64,000 nt of DNA from Christiangramia crocea (lineage in GTDB: Bacteria > Bacteroidota > Bacteroidia > Flavobacteriales > Flavobacteriaceae). A model generated the notes under the pieces. That model did no database searches. It saw only the letters and a program-made list of their open reading frames with translations, and was not told where the DNA came from. Below are positions 24,684-29,580 of the stretch, piece by piece. Made by a program: the position numbers and the translations under genes. The stretch is from positions 62,001-126,000 of the forward strand of contig NZ_JAJSON010000007.1 of assembly GCF_022410465.1 (NCBI RefSeq), given 5' to 3'. The stretch's first letter is position 1. Each line of letters starts with the position of its first letter.

Positions 24684-25979
24684 TTAACTCATCAAATATC
24701 CCTTCAGGTCTTCATAATTGCTGATCTGGAGGGATTTTTTTTCTTTATCAACAATTCTGGCTATTGAATCCGGAATTGCCACCTTCTTTCCTATCACCTC
24801 TTCAACAGTCTCTAAAAACTTAACTGGATGAGCGGTTTCCAGAAAAGTACCGTAATAACCATTTTTGTCCTTCAGAAACTCCTGAAGTCCTAAATATCCC
24901 ACAGCCCCATGTGGATCCATGACATAACCGGTCTCCTCAAAGACCTCCTTAATTGCCTTCTTCGTTTCTTCATCATCAAAACTATAGGCAGTTAAATTCT
25001 TTTTTAGTGAATGGTATTCATTATCAAAAAGCTGAAGAATACGCACAAAGTTACTGGGATCTCCCACATCCATAGCGTTCGAGATGGTCTGGACACTTGG
25101 TTTTGGTTTGTAAATTTCGGTTTCCAGATAACTCGTGACAGTATCATTCGCGTTATTTGAGGCTACAAATTGATCGATTGGTAATCCCATTTCCCTGGCA
25201 AGCATTCCGGCGCAAATATTTCCGAAATTCCCACTGGGAACTGAAAATACCAGCTTTTCATCCTTCTCCTCTAACTGCTTATACGCAAGGAAATAATAGA
25301 ACATCTGTGGTAACCACCTTGCTAGGTTGATAGAATTTGCAGAAGTAAGTTTTCGTTTCGCAGAGATGTCCTCATCCAGAAAAGCCTGTTTTACCATGGC
25401 CTGGCATTCATCAAAGGCTCCGTCAACTTCTAGAGCAGTGATATTCTGCCCCAAAGTAGTAAGTTGCTTTTCCTGGATCTCACTTACCTTTCCCTTAGGA
25501 TAGAGAATTACAACGTCTATACCATCAACCCCTAAAAATCCATTGGCCACGGCACCACCCGTATCTCCCGAAGTTGCCACCAGAACAGTTACATTTCCAA
25601 TATTACCCTTTTTTATAAAGTAACCCAGACTACCCGCCATAAACCGGGCCCCAACATCCTTAAAAGCAAGTGTTGGTCCATGAAAAAGCTCCAGGCTACC
25701 TATCCCCTTTTTTACATCCACTACGGGAAAATCAAAATCCAGAGTCTTACTAATGATGTTTTCTAATTCGTTATCTGGAATTTCACCTCCTACATAATCC
25801 TTAATGACCTGAAATCCAATTTCAGTTTTACTCAATTCAGGAAGTTTCTTAAAGAACGATTCAGGAAGTTTCACTATTTCCTCAGGAAAATAAAGCCCCT
25901 TATCAGGAGCCAGACCACGAATAACGGCATTTTCAAAATTGCTTCTGTGTTCCCTGTTATTTAAACTGAAATATTTCAT
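24684..25979 (-). CDS. thrC: Threonine synthase
   Basis: PLP enzyme that converts O-phosphohomoserine to threonine. The PLP-binding Lys is Lys107 in HGPTLAFKDVGARFM, and the phosphate-binding SGDTGGAVANGF loop and SVPSGNFGN motif are present. At 431 aa it is of the long E. coli-like class. Its start overlaps the thrB stop as ATGA, so the two are translationally coupled. Last gene of thrA-thrB-thrC, presumably under control of the leader upstream of thrA. Confidence 0.96.
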   Translation of the reverse strand: MKYFSLNNREHRSNFENAVIRGLAPDKGLYFPEEIVKLPESFFKKLPELSKTEIGFQVIKDYVGGEIPDNELENIISKTLDFDFPVVDVKKGIGSLELFHGPTLAFKDVGARFMAGSLGYFIKKGNIGNVTVLVATSGDTGGAVANGFLGVDGIDVVILYPKGKVSEIQEKQLTTLGQNITALEVDGAFDECQAMVKQAFLDEDISAKRKLTSANSINLARWLPQMFYYFLAYKQLEEKDEKLVFSVPSGNFGNICAGMLAREMGLPIDQFVASNNANDTVTSYLETEIYKPKPSVQTISNAMDVGDPSNFVRILQLFDNEYHSLKKNLTAYSFDDEETKKAIKEVFEETGYVMDPHGAVGYLGLQEFLKDKNGYYGTFLETAHPVKFLETVEEVIGKKVAIPDSIARIVDKEKKSLQISNYEDLKGYLMS

Positions 25980-26896
25980 AGTATTTTTACTCCCTGTTTA
26001 TTAATTGCTGAAAGATGAAGATCAAAGTCGATCCCTTTCTTCTCATAAAATTTCTTGATTGCCTGCTTTACCTTTTCCGCATTTTCATCTCCTTTGCAAA
26101 GGGCATATACTGAAGGTCCCGACCCTGAGATACCAAAACCTAAAGCCCCATTGGCCACTGATAGTTCATCCAGTTCCTGGAAATAAGGAATAAGGATGGA
26201 ACGTATAGGTTCCACGATCTCATCTTCAAGGCTCCTCCCCAAAAGATCATAATCATCAGTATAAAGAGCACTTATTAATGCTCCAAGGTTTCCCCACTGA
26301 TTTATGGCTGATTTAAGACTTATATTCTGCTTGATAATGGAACGGGAATCTTTAGTCTTTATCTCAATTAAAGGGTGTAACACCACCATTCTCAATTCTG
26401 AAGGAACGGGCAAACTAAGGACTTCCAAGGGACAGTAGCTTCTTACAAGGCTAAAGCCCCCAAGCAGTGCCGGTGCAACATTATCTGCATGCTCATTCCC
26501 ACTTGCTATAAGCTCTCCCTGCATTGCGAAAGGTATCAGCTGGTTAGAACTGTAAGGTTCTCCCAGCAGTTTATTCACGGCGAAAACCGCTCCGGCAGAA
26601 CTTGCAGCACTACTGCCGATCCCACTTCCTGGTTTGATCCTTTTGGTTATCTCTATATCGAATCCCTGATCAGATTCCAGGTCCTTCAATAAGGCCTTAA
26701 CAGCTACCCCTGCAACATTCTTATCGGCTTCCATTGGAAGTTCCTGTCCGGTGACTTTAGTAATCCTGATTTCATTCAGGTCATTTTTTCTCACTACCAT
26801 CTCATCACCCACAGAATCGAGGCAACAACCCAGAACATCAAAGCCACAGGAAAGGTTGGCAACAGTTGCCGGCGCAAAAACTTTTAATTCCTTCAT
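25976..26896 (-). CDS. thrB: Homoserine kinase
   Basis: GHMP-family kinase that makes O-phosphohomoserine from homoserine and ATP. The N-terminal VFAPATVANLSCGFDVLG and the phosphate-binding loop PGSGIGSSAASSAGAV (about 89-104) are family signatures, and GISGSGPSVYAL is the C-terminal motif. At 306 aa the length is standard. It starts 2 bp after the thrA stop and overlaps thrC by 4 nt, so the three genes form one tight operon. Confidence 0.96.
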   Translation of the reverse strand: MKELKVFAPATVANLSCGFDVLGCCLDSVGDEMVVRKNDLNEIRITKVTGQELPMEADKNVAGVAVKALLKDLESDQGFDIEITKRIKPGSGIGSSAASSAGAVFAVNKLLGEPYSSNQLIPFAMQGELIASGNEHADNVAPALLGGFSLVRSYCPLEVLSLPVPSELRMVVLHPLIEIKTKDSRSIIKQNISLKSAINQWGNLGALISALYTDDYDLLGRSLEDEIVEPIRSILIPYFQELDELSVANGALGFGISGSGPSVYALCKGDENAEKVKQAIKKFYEKKGIDFDLHLSAINKQGVKIL

Positions 26897-26898
26897 AC

Positions 26899-29346
26899 CT
26901 ATTTCTTTCCTACCCTGATTATATCTGCAAATATTCCCGACGCGGTCACTTCAGCTCCAGCCCCGGCTCCTTTCACGATTAATGGTTGTTCGGGATATCT
27001 TTCAGTAAAAAATAATACAATATTATCACTTCCGCTAAGTCCGGCAAAAGGATGATCGGCACCTACTTCCTGAAGTCCTACTTTTGCCTTTCCATCTTCA
27101 AGCTGAGCCACATATTTCAGTTCGGCATTATTTTCTACAGCATGATTGTACATCTTCTTAAATTCAGGTTCATCATGTTCAAGCAATTCAAAGAATCTTT
27201 CATTCGATTCTGAATTAAGACTTTCCTGTGAAAGGAAATCATCCCTTTCTATATCCTCCAGCTCCAGTTGATGTCCGCTCTCACGGGCAAGGATGAGTAT
27301 TTTTCTTGCAACATCTACCCCGCTAAGATCTATCTTCGGATCGGGTTCAGTATAACCTTCCTTCATGGCTTTTTCAACCACCTTATAGAAGGGTTCTGAA
27401 GCATCATAGTTATTAAATACAAAATTAAGGCTGCCGGAAAGAACTGCCTGGATCTTGGTTATCCTGTCTCCGGAAGCCACAAGATTCTGTAAAGTGTCAA
27501 TTATTGGAAGTCCGGCGCCTACATTGGTCTCATAAAGGAATGAAGCTCCATATTCCCTTGCCAGGTTCTGAAGGTTCTCATAATTCTCAAAGTCATCGGC
27601 ACATGCGATCTTGTTACAGGTGACTACTGAAATGGAATTTGCAAGATAGTGCTTATACCAGTCAGATATTTCCGGACTGGCCGTATTATCCACAAAAACA
27701 CTGTTTCTAAGGTTAAATTCCTTCACCCTGTTGAAGAATTCTTTTCTATCAGCATTTTCAGCATTCTCCAATTCTTCTTGCCAATTATTCAGATCTATTC
27801 CATCTTCGTTAAAGAGCATCTTTCGCGAATTGGAAAGGCCCAGCACCCTAACCTTTAATCTTAACTTTTCAAGCAGGTATTTTTCCTGTTTCTTAAGCTG
27901 ATTAATAAGTTTACTACCAACATTTCCAACTCCTGTAATGAAGAGGTTCATCTCTTTTGAAGGTACCTCAAAGAACTGTTCATGCAGGGTGTTCAATGCC
28001 TTTACCACATCTTTCTTTGCGATCACTGCTGAAATATTTCTCTCAGAAGATCCCTGGGCAATAGCCCTGATATTTATGTTGTTATTCCCAAGGGCGCTGA
28101 ACATTTTCCCGCTAAGACCATGATGGCTTCTCATCCTGTCTCCGACAAGGGCGATAATTGCCACATCATCCTCGATCTCCACAGGTTTAATTTTTTTATA
28201 GTCTATCTCAACTTCAAAGGCCTCGTCTATAGCCTCTTTGGCCTGGTCAGCTTCATCAGCTTTCACGGCGATACAAATACTGTGTTCAGAGGAAGCCTGA
28301 GTAATAAGCACCACGTTTATGTTCTCCTGAAAAAGAACCTCGAACAAACGCTTGGAAAAACCGGGGATTCCAACCATACCACTACCCTCAATATTCAGAA
28401 GTTTTATTGAATCTATATGTGTAATTCCCGTTACCCAGCGAAAATTCTTTTTGCTGGACCTCGAAATAAGGGTGCCCGGATTATCGGGCTCAAAGGTGTT
28501 TTTTATATGAATTTGGATATTTTTATCGAGCAGTGGCTGTAATGTTGGCGGATATAAAACCTTGGCACCAAAATGTGAAAGTTCCATTGCTTCTTCATAA
28601 GAGATTTCCTTCAAGGAATAAGCCTGGGGAACCAGGTTAGGGTTTGCAGTGAACATCCCGTTTACATCGGTATAAATAATTACCTTGTCAAGATTGAGTG
28701 CTCCACCTATAATGGCGGCAGTAAAATCTGATCCTCCACGACCCAGGGTACTTGGCACACCAAGATCATTTTTGGCAACAAAACCGGGAACTATATAAAG
28801 ATCAGCTTCGTTCTTCTTGAAATATTCAGTGATGTTACTGTTTGTCTTTTCATAATTCACCTGAACCTTTTCATTCTGATTTTTACAAACGATAAGTTCC
28901 CGGGAATCGGTAAACAAACTTTTTATTTTAAGGCTTTTAAAATATTCTGAAATAATCAGGGAACTTAGAATTTCTCCAAAACCGGAAATAACATGACGGG
29001 TTTTATCTGAAAGTTCATTCAATAAAAAAACTCCTTCATAAAGAGTTTCTAGTCGATTAAACTGATTTTTTACCTGGCTCAGGATACCACTTTGGGCTGT
29101 CACCGGAATCAACTCCCTTACTGCCTCCAGGTGCCGTTTTTCATTCTTTTCAAGGATTTCTTTGTAACTAAGATCCTCTCTTGCGGCCAATTCAGCCATG
29201 AGCAAAAGATCATTAGTTACACCGCCAAAAGCTGAGACCACCGTAATCACAGAGTCTTCTTCAAGATGTTGCTGAATAGTTTTGGATACCAGTTTTATTC
29301 TTTCTGGCGAAGCGAGGGACGTCCCTCCAAATTTCAGGATATGCAT
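26899..29346 (-). CDS. thrA: Bifunctional aspartate kinase / homoserine dehydrogenase
   Basis: Fusion of 815 aa. The N-terminal aspartate kinase begins MHILKFGGTSLASPERI and contains LGRGGSDFTAA; tandem ACT regulatory domains lie about 310-460; the C-terminal homoserine dehydrogenase starts at FITGVGNVGSKL (about 465) and contains the GAGLPIIDTL segment and the VVKGAGAGAEVTASG ending. It catalyses the first and third steps from aspartate towards threonine. ACT domains imply feedback by threonine. The ATG at 29346 is 65 nt after the stop of an Ile/Thr-rich leader frame, which suggests attenuation as a second control layer. Confidence 0.96.
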   Translation of the reverse strand: MHILKFGGTSLASPERIKLVSKTIQQHLEEDSVITVVSAFGGVTNDLLLMAELAAREDLSYKEILEKNEKRHLEAVRELIPVTAQSGILSQVKNQFNRLETLYEGVFLLNELSDKTRHVISGFGEILSSLIISEYFKSLKIKSLFTDSRELIVCKNQNEKVQVNYEKTNSNITEYFKKNEADLYIVPGFVAKNDLGVPSTLGRGGSDFTAAIIGGALNLDKVIIYTDVNGMFTANPNLVPQAYSLKEISYEEAMELSHFGAKVLYPPTLQPLLDKNIQIHIKNTFEPDNPGTLISRSSKKNFRWVTGITHIDSIKLLNIEGSGMVGIPGFSKRLFEVLFQENINVVLITQASSEHSICIAVKADEADQAKEAIDEAFEVEIDYKKIKPVEIEDDVAIIALVGDRMRSHHGLSGKMFSALGNNNINIRAIAQGSSERNISAVIAKKDVVKALNTLHEQFFEVPSKEMNLFITGVGNVGSKLINQLKKQEKYLLEKLRLKVRVLGLSNSRKMLFNEDGIDLNNWQEELENAENADRKEFFNRVKEFNLRNSVFVDNTASPEISDWYKHYLANSISVVTCNKIACADDFENYENLQNLAREYGASFLYETNVGAGLPIIDTLQNLVASGDRITKIQAVLSGSLNFVFNNYDASEPFYKVVEKAMKEGYTEPDPKIDLSGVDVARKILILARESGHQLELEDIERDDFLSQESLNSESNERFFELLEHDEPEFKKMYNHAVENNAELKYVAQLEDGKAKVGLQEVGADHPFAGLSGSDNIVLFFTERYPEQPLIVKGAGAGAEVTASGIFADIIRVGKK

Positions 29347-29393
29347 AACTGAAACCGTTTAAAAATTAATAAGGTTAATAAGAAATTAAAATA

Positions 29394-29448
29394 TACAGGT
29401 ACGAACGAAAATTATATAATAAGAACCCCAAAAGGGGTAATACCTGTA
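29394..29448 (-). promoter_or_regulatory. Candidate attenuator hairpin of the thr operon
   Basis: On the transcript an 8-bp stem can form between TACAGGTA (29448-29441) and TACCTGTA (29401-29394). It encloses a smaller hairpin ACCCC-TTTT-GGGGT (29438-29425) and is followed by a U-rich stretch reading TATTTTAATTTCTT. The 5' arm lies inside the leader frame at its Thr-Gly codons, so a ribosome stalled on the Ile/Thr codons would prevent pairing. Whether it ends transcription or acts on translation cannot be told from sequence. Confidence 0.5.
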
Positions 29449-29501
29449 ATCATGATAATACCAATAATACGCATTCGGAAAGGAATATTTCCAGCATTCA
29501 T
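29412..29501 (-). CDS. Ile/Thr-rich leader peptide of the thr operon (29 aa)
   Basis: ATG at 29501 opens a 29-codon frame ending in TAA at 29412-29414. Its central part RIIGIIMITGITPFGVLII is loaded with isoleucine and threonine: Ile at positions 6, 12, 13, 15, 16, 18, 21, 28 and 29, Thr at 19 and 22. It precedes thrA by 65 nt, and a promoter can be placed just upstream. In enterobacteria the thrL leader, rich in Thr and Ile codons, controls the same genes by ribosome stalling; this frame fits that idea. Against it, AT-rich DNA naturally yields ATT codons, so comparison with relatives is decisive. Confidence 0.6.
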   Translation of the reverse strand: MNAGNIPFRMRIIGIIMITGITPFGVLII

Positions 29502-29550
29502 ATCGATATTTTTTAGAAGATTTTTCACAGCTTTTGCTTGTAAACTTGAA

Positions 29551-29580
29551 TAAAGGTATTCAAATAAATTTAGCGGCAAA
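29551..29580 (-). promoter_or_regulatory. Candidate promoter of the thr operon
   Basis: On the minus strand TTTG (29580-29577) and TACCTTTA (29558-29551) are 18 nt apart, close to the Bacteroidetes -33 TTTG / -7 TAnnTTTG pattern (one mismatch in the -7 box). Transcription would begin near 29545, about 43 nt before the leader ATG. Confidence 0.5.

Follow-up and report, generated by a model that had tools for sequence, protein, structure and literature searches.

Upstream of the gene for a fused aspartokinase-homoserine dehydrogenase in Christiangramia crocea, the minus strand carries a short frame rich in isoleucine and threonine codons. This locus raises the question of whether the operon behind that frame is controlled through it and, if so, by what kind of off-switch. 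The locus was analysed in a window of 64,000 nucleotides, to which all coordinates refer. The gene itself, thrA, encodes a protein of 815 aa with the Pfam domains AA_kinase, ACT, NAD_binding_3 and Homoserine_dh (26899..29346, minus strand). On the same strand lie a homoserine kinase of the GHMP family (25976..26896; Pfam GHMP_kinases_N and _C), named thrB because of its position in the operon, and a thrC-like threonine synthase (24684..25979; Pfam Thr_synth_N and PALP). A further homologue of this fused enzyme, full-length and 36% identical, is encoded elsewhere in the genome in an open frame of 1128 residues (contig C16, L002).

A promoter had been read from the sequence upstream of thrA (29551..29580, minus strand), and it was confirmed as one of Bacteroidota type: TTTG lies at 29580-29577 and, after 18 nt, TACCTTTA at 29558-29551. 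The -7 consensus used here, TAnnTTTG, is the promoter consensus named in the consulted parts of PMC9723704. The corresponding box, TAnnTTT[GA], was present upstream in all 94 leaders compared, versus 43 of 94 shuffled sequences.

The comparison was built on 102 thrA upstream regions, 22 from the genus itself and 80 from elsewhere in the family. Of 24 genomes searched within the genus, 22 had a complete thrA with its upstream DNA; the other two, without a complete thrA, were not used (L030 is partial and L031 a paralogue). Christiangramia oceanisediminis (L006) is a genus-mate and belongs to the Flavobacteriaceae. In the wider search, 114 of 149 genomes, C. crocea included, matched at an E value of 1e-200, and 80 of the 113 others were taken. 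Eight of the 102 regions were without the hairpin P1 described below and do not enter the leader counts (L065, L066, L104, L105, L109, L112, L115 and L116); one comparison used 92 of the 94 leaders, with two near-duplicates dropped. Among the regions left out, L105 has no leader and its thrA stands directly behind a 225-aa frame resembling the last part of ilvA, and by eye L104 and L112 likewise have thrA behind an ilvA-like end, without a leader. The leader of L115, also in the Flavobacteriaceae, is seemingly of the terminator type, with a Thr/Ile frame, a hairpin and a T-run recognized by eye.

The leader frame and its control codons

The sequence-only reading had described a frame of 29 codons containing nine Ile and two Thr codons. 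The codons were indeed found between ATG 29501 and the TAA at 29412 on the minus strand; the ATG start was not upheld. The frame is open upstream of this ATG, which is not common to the genus, and in the window species the predicted leader peptide frame starts at GTG 29528, has 38 codons and ends in ...RIIGIIMITGITPFGVLII with the stop TAA at 29414-29412 (29412..29528, minus strand). An in-frame start was found 28-30 codons before P1 in all 22 genus members (GTG in 20, ATG in L021 and TTG in L015), and all 22 share a related C-terminal part of the leader, ITGITPFGVLAI and its variants, shortened in some. Four typed leader peptides gave no match in Pfam or NCBIfam.

The putative control codons form an Ile/Thr-rich stretch of 12 codons directly before P1 (29439..29474, minus strand). 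In this stretch the 94 leaders had a mean of 6.31 Thr and Ile codons in the leader frame versus 0.48 and 0.22 in the other two frames, and stop codons occurred in 0 of 94 leaders in the leader frame and in 46 and 23 in the others. The best 12-codon count of Thr plus Ile in the window's leader was 8, which was equalled by only 1 of 2000 dinucleotide shuffles and was the highest among 45 upstream regions of the window. The stop codon lay inside P1 in 11 of the 94 leaders and at most 20 nt after the GGG of P1 in 83.

Judged by these comparisons, the leader frame is real and conserved, and the operon is preceded by what appears to be a small frame whose control codons match its product, as an attenuator would have it. 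The claim that the leader reads the two end products of the pathway, Thr and Ile, is strongly supported by the conserved frame and its codons in the Flavobacteriaceae and in parts of some other families. The leader is very likely a Thr/Ile sensor operating by stalled ribosomes; the frame would be translated and stall ribosomes, and Ile as well as Thr would be sensed.

Hairpins of the leader

An inner GC hairpin noted earlier in the window is the element that we call P1 (29425..29438, minus strand), ACCCC-TTTT-GGGGT, which overlaps the end of the leader frame. Its CCC..GGG core was present in 94 of the 102 thrA upstream regions, and 97.9% of the P1 cells were paired in 19 aligned rows of the 22 from the genus. 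The fourth pair was C-G in 60, A-T in 33 and T-G in 1 of the 94 leaders, compared with 50.9 paired on average and a maximum of 64 in the shuffled control; as the register was picked sequence by sequence for stem length, selection accounts for part of the pairing at the inner P1 levels. Our model R1 recovered 89 of 97 given loci, all 89 among the 92 with P1. In its alignment 28 and 27 of the 88 rows did not pair at the two outer P1 positions, which we put down to 3- and 4-base loops standing out of register. On the evidence of the alignments, P1 is a conserved, covarying hairpin of the leader.

The outer stem of 8 bp, whose arm TACAGGTA at 29448-29441 lies opposite TACCTGTA at 29401-29394 (29394..29448, minus strand), fared differently. 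It exists as described and is stable: together with the inner hairpin it folds at -16.4 kcal/mol (z -3.7), and none of 200 shuffles was as low. The small frame and its Thr/Ile codons proved to be conserved in the relatives compared, whereas the arms of this stem showed no preference for their own partner (6.0 bp, against 5.99 bp with the partner of another species; n=22, shifts allowed). Only 63% of its cells were paired in the 19 genus rows, versus 98% in P1, although the low figure is owed in part to an insertion of 2 nt by which the 3' arm is displaced in many rows, and three of its inner pairs were broken in 12 to 14 of the 19 rows. We therefore rejected the outer stem as a functional hairpin, as it is not conserved in the genus; given the good fold in this one species, it may still have a local role there.

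Further hairpins were predicted elsewhere in the family. RNAalifold, applied to 21 chosen Flavobacterium-like rows, which were also used for the other P0, P2 and antiterminator analyses, gave P1 together with two further hairpins, P0 within the frame and P2 beyond the conserved motif described below. Compensatory changes were seen at 9 of the 18 pairs of the three. The arms of P2 favoured their own partner (-6.49 versus -4.64 kcal/mol; 0 of 5000 permutations as low), and a second hairpin is present after the motif in many genera. A candidate P0 lies within the window's leader frame, upstream of the control codons (29476..29493, minus strand), and a distance of about 36 nt from the end of a hairpin to P1 is common, with a mean longest stem of 6.4 bp versus 5.5 bp in shuffled sequences. 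The 19 rows of the window's own genus yielded P1 alone, with neither P0 nor P2 predicted. A general long-range pairing between the 5' leader and the stretch behind P1 was not supported (cognate -11.7 versus -11.5 kcal/mol for non-cognate pairs; 93 of 94 leaders, long-spacer rows left out); four loci (L048, L055, L060 and L078) show CGGAC/GUCCG complementarity between these two parts.

The tail of the leader and its distribution

P1 is followed by a conserved motif, TATATAATTTTCGTTCG in the window (29402..29418, minus strand) and YATAT..TCNG as the family consensus. It was found within the first 28 nt after P1 in 78 of 94 leaders, versus 4.2 of 94 in shuffled sequences and 1 of 93 further downstream, by a loose pattern set after the sequences were seen. 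The spacing between P1 and the motif is variable, mostly 4-14 nt, and a rigid polymerase pause therefore fits poorly.

The U-rich stretch reported after the hairpin is present. It does not amount to a canonical terminator, although the window's own P1 passes a relaxed rule. Under the strict scan (stem of 5 bp or more, with 3 or more GC pairs, and 6 or more T among 8 positions) an intrinsic terminator lay between leader and thrA in a single one of the 94 thr leaders, versus 0.2 for shuffled regions, while in the control set of his leaders, made up of 8 from the genus (C. crocea among them) and 3 from different families within the order, it was found in 11 of 11. The relaxed rule was passed by 25 of 94 leaders versus 6.2 shuffled, and by 37 versus 12.6 when 4-bp stems were allowed. 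Since the canonical terminator is absent, the off-switch probably works in another way. Among the control loci, the region upstream of hisG in C. crocea (contig C10, L127) has a textbook-like his attenuator, with a small frame containing HHHH codons (MRPIFVHHHHFSIHAQAR from its ATG), then a strong terminator hairpin and a T-run. In L131, from the same order, a leader MRVNNVILSIIILLCQL is followed by a terminator-like hairpin and a T-run before ilvD; by eye, nothing comparable was seen upstream of ilvD in eight genus loci.

The tail between P1 and thrA (29347..29424 in the window, minus strand) is instead marked by its composition. C exceeded G in 93 of 93 leaders (93 of the 94 were used), with a C/G ratio of 2.44, compared with 1.04 upstream of 15 other genes of the window, 1.27 ahead of hisG and 1.09 in the DNA preceding the thr promoters. 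The window's own tail, with 10 C and 6 G in 78 nt, has a modest bias. The leaders accordingly carry C-rich, G-poor untranslated RNA past the leader stop, as a Rho-dependent attenuator would, weakly so in the window species. The coding 80 nt before P1 also has more C than G (ratio 1.67; 92% of rows), the tail shows little enrichment of YC dinucleotides (8.2 versus 7.1 per 80 nt), and a C-over-G bias can have causes other than Rho. The genome encodes rho (PF07497, 121.6 bits).

A second kind of leader was found in f6, a family of the same class that may be the Sphingobacteriaceae. A Thr/Ile leader precedes the orthologous thrA in 24 of 26 f6 genomes, the other 2 being without a leader, and 21 of the 24 leaders have an ordinary terminator. 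With the terminator left out, the tails of these 21 rows had a C/G ratio of 0.90. The three that failed the scan were L210 and L211, which are of the P1 type, and L234, which has a hairpin and an interrupted T-run; L233 has a terminator and also passes the loose P1 pattern. L210 and L211 belong to one genus, and their ThrA is 55-56% identical to that of the window, compared with 45-48% for the other f6 proteins compared. As the ThrA of these two is closer to the window's than is the rest of f6, the sequences suggest that leader and thrA moved together. Family f24 of the phylum has the leader in 7 of 21 cases, all P1-type by the loose pattern, with a terminator in 0 of 7 and a tail C/G ratio of 3.04. 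By eye, P1-type leaders also occur in Niabella (L007, Chitinophagaceae) and in a Chitinophagaceae MAG (L008).

In a wider sample of 65 regions from the phylum, 9 from the Flavobacteriaceae and 56 from other families, scored by one automatic rule, the leader was found in 28. P1 was present in 5 of 9 regions of the Flavobacteriaceae, 6 of 14 of f24, 4 of 5 of f7 and 1 of 1 of f5; a terminator was present in 5 of 5 of f6 and 1 of 4 of f17. A leader with neither occurred in 4 of 4 regions of f11 and in one each of f1 and f7, and no leader was found in 23 regions from twelve other families. Judging from this sample, the element is widespread in the phylum, though far from universal. In at least some of the f11 leaders (L168, L177, L178 and L179) a hairpin of reversed polarity, like GGGG..CCC, was seen by eye. 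That other operons of the C. crocea genome share the module found no support in a scan with R1, in which 150 of 1935 first-look candidates were scored and which was thus not exhaustive: the one strong match was the thrA leader, and of two weak matches (21.1 and 18.3 bits) one precedes an unrelated gene and the other falls within a large reading frame. One Thr/Ile sensor seems to have been joined to two output modules.

A proposed mechanism, its alternatives and known systems

We propose that the region before thrA is the regulatory leader of the thrABC operon and acts as a ribosome-mediated Thr/Ile attenuator whose off state is reached through P1 and a Rho-type zone. We give this explanation an even chance of being correct. 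A ribosome would translate the Ile/Thr-rich leader peptide and, with ample charged tRNA, would reach the stop just past P1 and leave. P1 could then form in the nascent RNA as the off signal, and RNA polymerase would run on into the ribosome-free, C-rich and G-poor tail, where a factor, most likely Rho, would terminate transcription, probably with pauses at P1 and the conserved motif as an aid. Under a shortage of Thr or Ile, the ribosome would stall on the control codons, which extend into the 5' arm of P1; P1 would be barred, the polymerase would escape and thrABC would be made. The computational support consists of the conserved frame, start, codon run, promoter box, P1 and motif, the C-over-G tail and the lack of a canonical terminator; the Rho-type zone is proposed because of the C-over-G bias, the missing U-tract and the contrast with f6.

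Alternatively, P1 could be a weak or non-canonical intrinsic terminator, acting alone or with NusA or NusG, and the stalled ribosome would block P1 directly. This we consider rather unlikely. P1 does adjoin the control codons, in the window it is followed by the AU-rich TCTTATTAT, and the relaxed scans found more candidates than in shuffled sequences; against this, the strict scan is almost empty while the his and f6 thr leaders have ordinary U-tracts under the same rule, and many P1 hairpins are followed by sequences like AAGCAACTATATAT, GCTAATTATATAT or CCTTGCTATAT, which are not U-runs.

It is less probable still that control is translational, the leader altering how readily ribosomes reach the thrA start and any loss of mRNA being secondary, as proposed for toiL-topAI. 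Such a switch would accord with the 93 of 94 leaders that are without a canonical terminator and has a precedent in PMC12121999, as far as its consulted text goes, and for some members of the genus pairing is possible between the thrA start and the stretch behind P1. Masking of that start, which the earlier reading had also considered, found no support in the duplex energies: cognate pairs averaged -5.60 kcal/mol and non-cognate pairs -5.69 kcal/mol (permutation p 0.70; n=90 of 94, long-spacer rows left out), shuffled segments gave stronger duplexes (-6.35 kcal/mol), and the genus alone gave p 0.11 (n=22).

Classical attenuation by mutually exclusive structures, in which an antiterminator arises from pairing of the leader codons with the 5' arm of P2, is improbable. 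The last control codons can form at least 7 pairs with this arm in 8 of the 21 Flavobacterium-like rows, but the cognate advantage is weak (p 0.088; 21 rows), no P2 is predicted in the window's genus and P2 makes no canonical terminator. That the locus is non-regulatory, a chance frame beside a chance hairpin, can hardly be credited, for although Ile codons are frequent in AT-rich DNA, this reading is contradicted by the conservation of codons, start, hairpin and motif.

Beyond the single locus, the proposed attenuator might represent a distinct class in part of the Bacteroidota, in which a stalled-ribosome Thr/Ile leader drives factor-dependent termination (by Rho, pausing or both) and a compact RNA module of P1, YATAT..TCNG and often P2 replaces the intrinsic terminator, having moved with thrA between families; we hold this broader proposal more tentatively, at somewhat less than an even chance. 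Textbook amino acid attenuation ends in an intrinsic terminator; in the large family studied here this sensor seems to be coupled to a different output, while another family retains the classical one on the same gene.

The enteric thrL is a short frame of Thr and Ile codons directly upstream of thrABC that acts through an intrinsic terminator. The leader studied here resembles it in having a short Thr/Ile-rich frame just upstream of thrABC and differs in the near absence of canonical terminators, which bears out the earlier caution that the mechanism may differ from that of thrL. Rfam gave no match in the window at gathering score, the enteric Thr leader included; over 14 tested loci the only match was a tRNA in L158, with none over the leader at gathering score, and a further comparison of the leader gave three matches far below that score. 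In our search of freely accessible literature, no description of a terminator-less thr leader was found; Lopatovskaya et al. 2010, as cited in the consulted text of PMC4833913, is possibly relevant.

Within the same family, leader-peptide attenuation has been proposed upstream of amino acid operons in F. psychrophilum, with pheA and hisG among the conserved 5' elements (PMC9723704, in the parts consulted), and ours is likewise a predicted leader peptide before an amino acid biosynthesis operon; the terms thrA and threonine are absent from the main text of that paper as consulted. In the texts covered, attenuation in flavobacteria has been proposed and not dissected. Small frames reminiscent of leader peptides are mentioned for B. 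thetaiotaomicron in the consulted portion of PMC7366714. In toiL-topAI of E. coli, according to the consulted text of PMC12121999, repression is brought about in part by premature Rho-dependent termination and is lifted when a ribosome stalls in a short frame upstream; toiL responds to antibiotics, and the toiL region masks the start of the gene behind it. The thrA leader would share with it the coupling of a short-frame stall to premature Rho-dependent termination, a dependence that we infer at thrA, and it differs in that start masking is unsupported. A further comparison is with the f6 thr leaders, which are alike in placing a Thr/Ile leader before an orthologous thrA and unlike in their ordinary terminators and tails that are not C-rich. 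P1-type and terminator-type leaders on the same gene would thus make a natural pair for studying terminator-less control of transcription by ribosome stalling.
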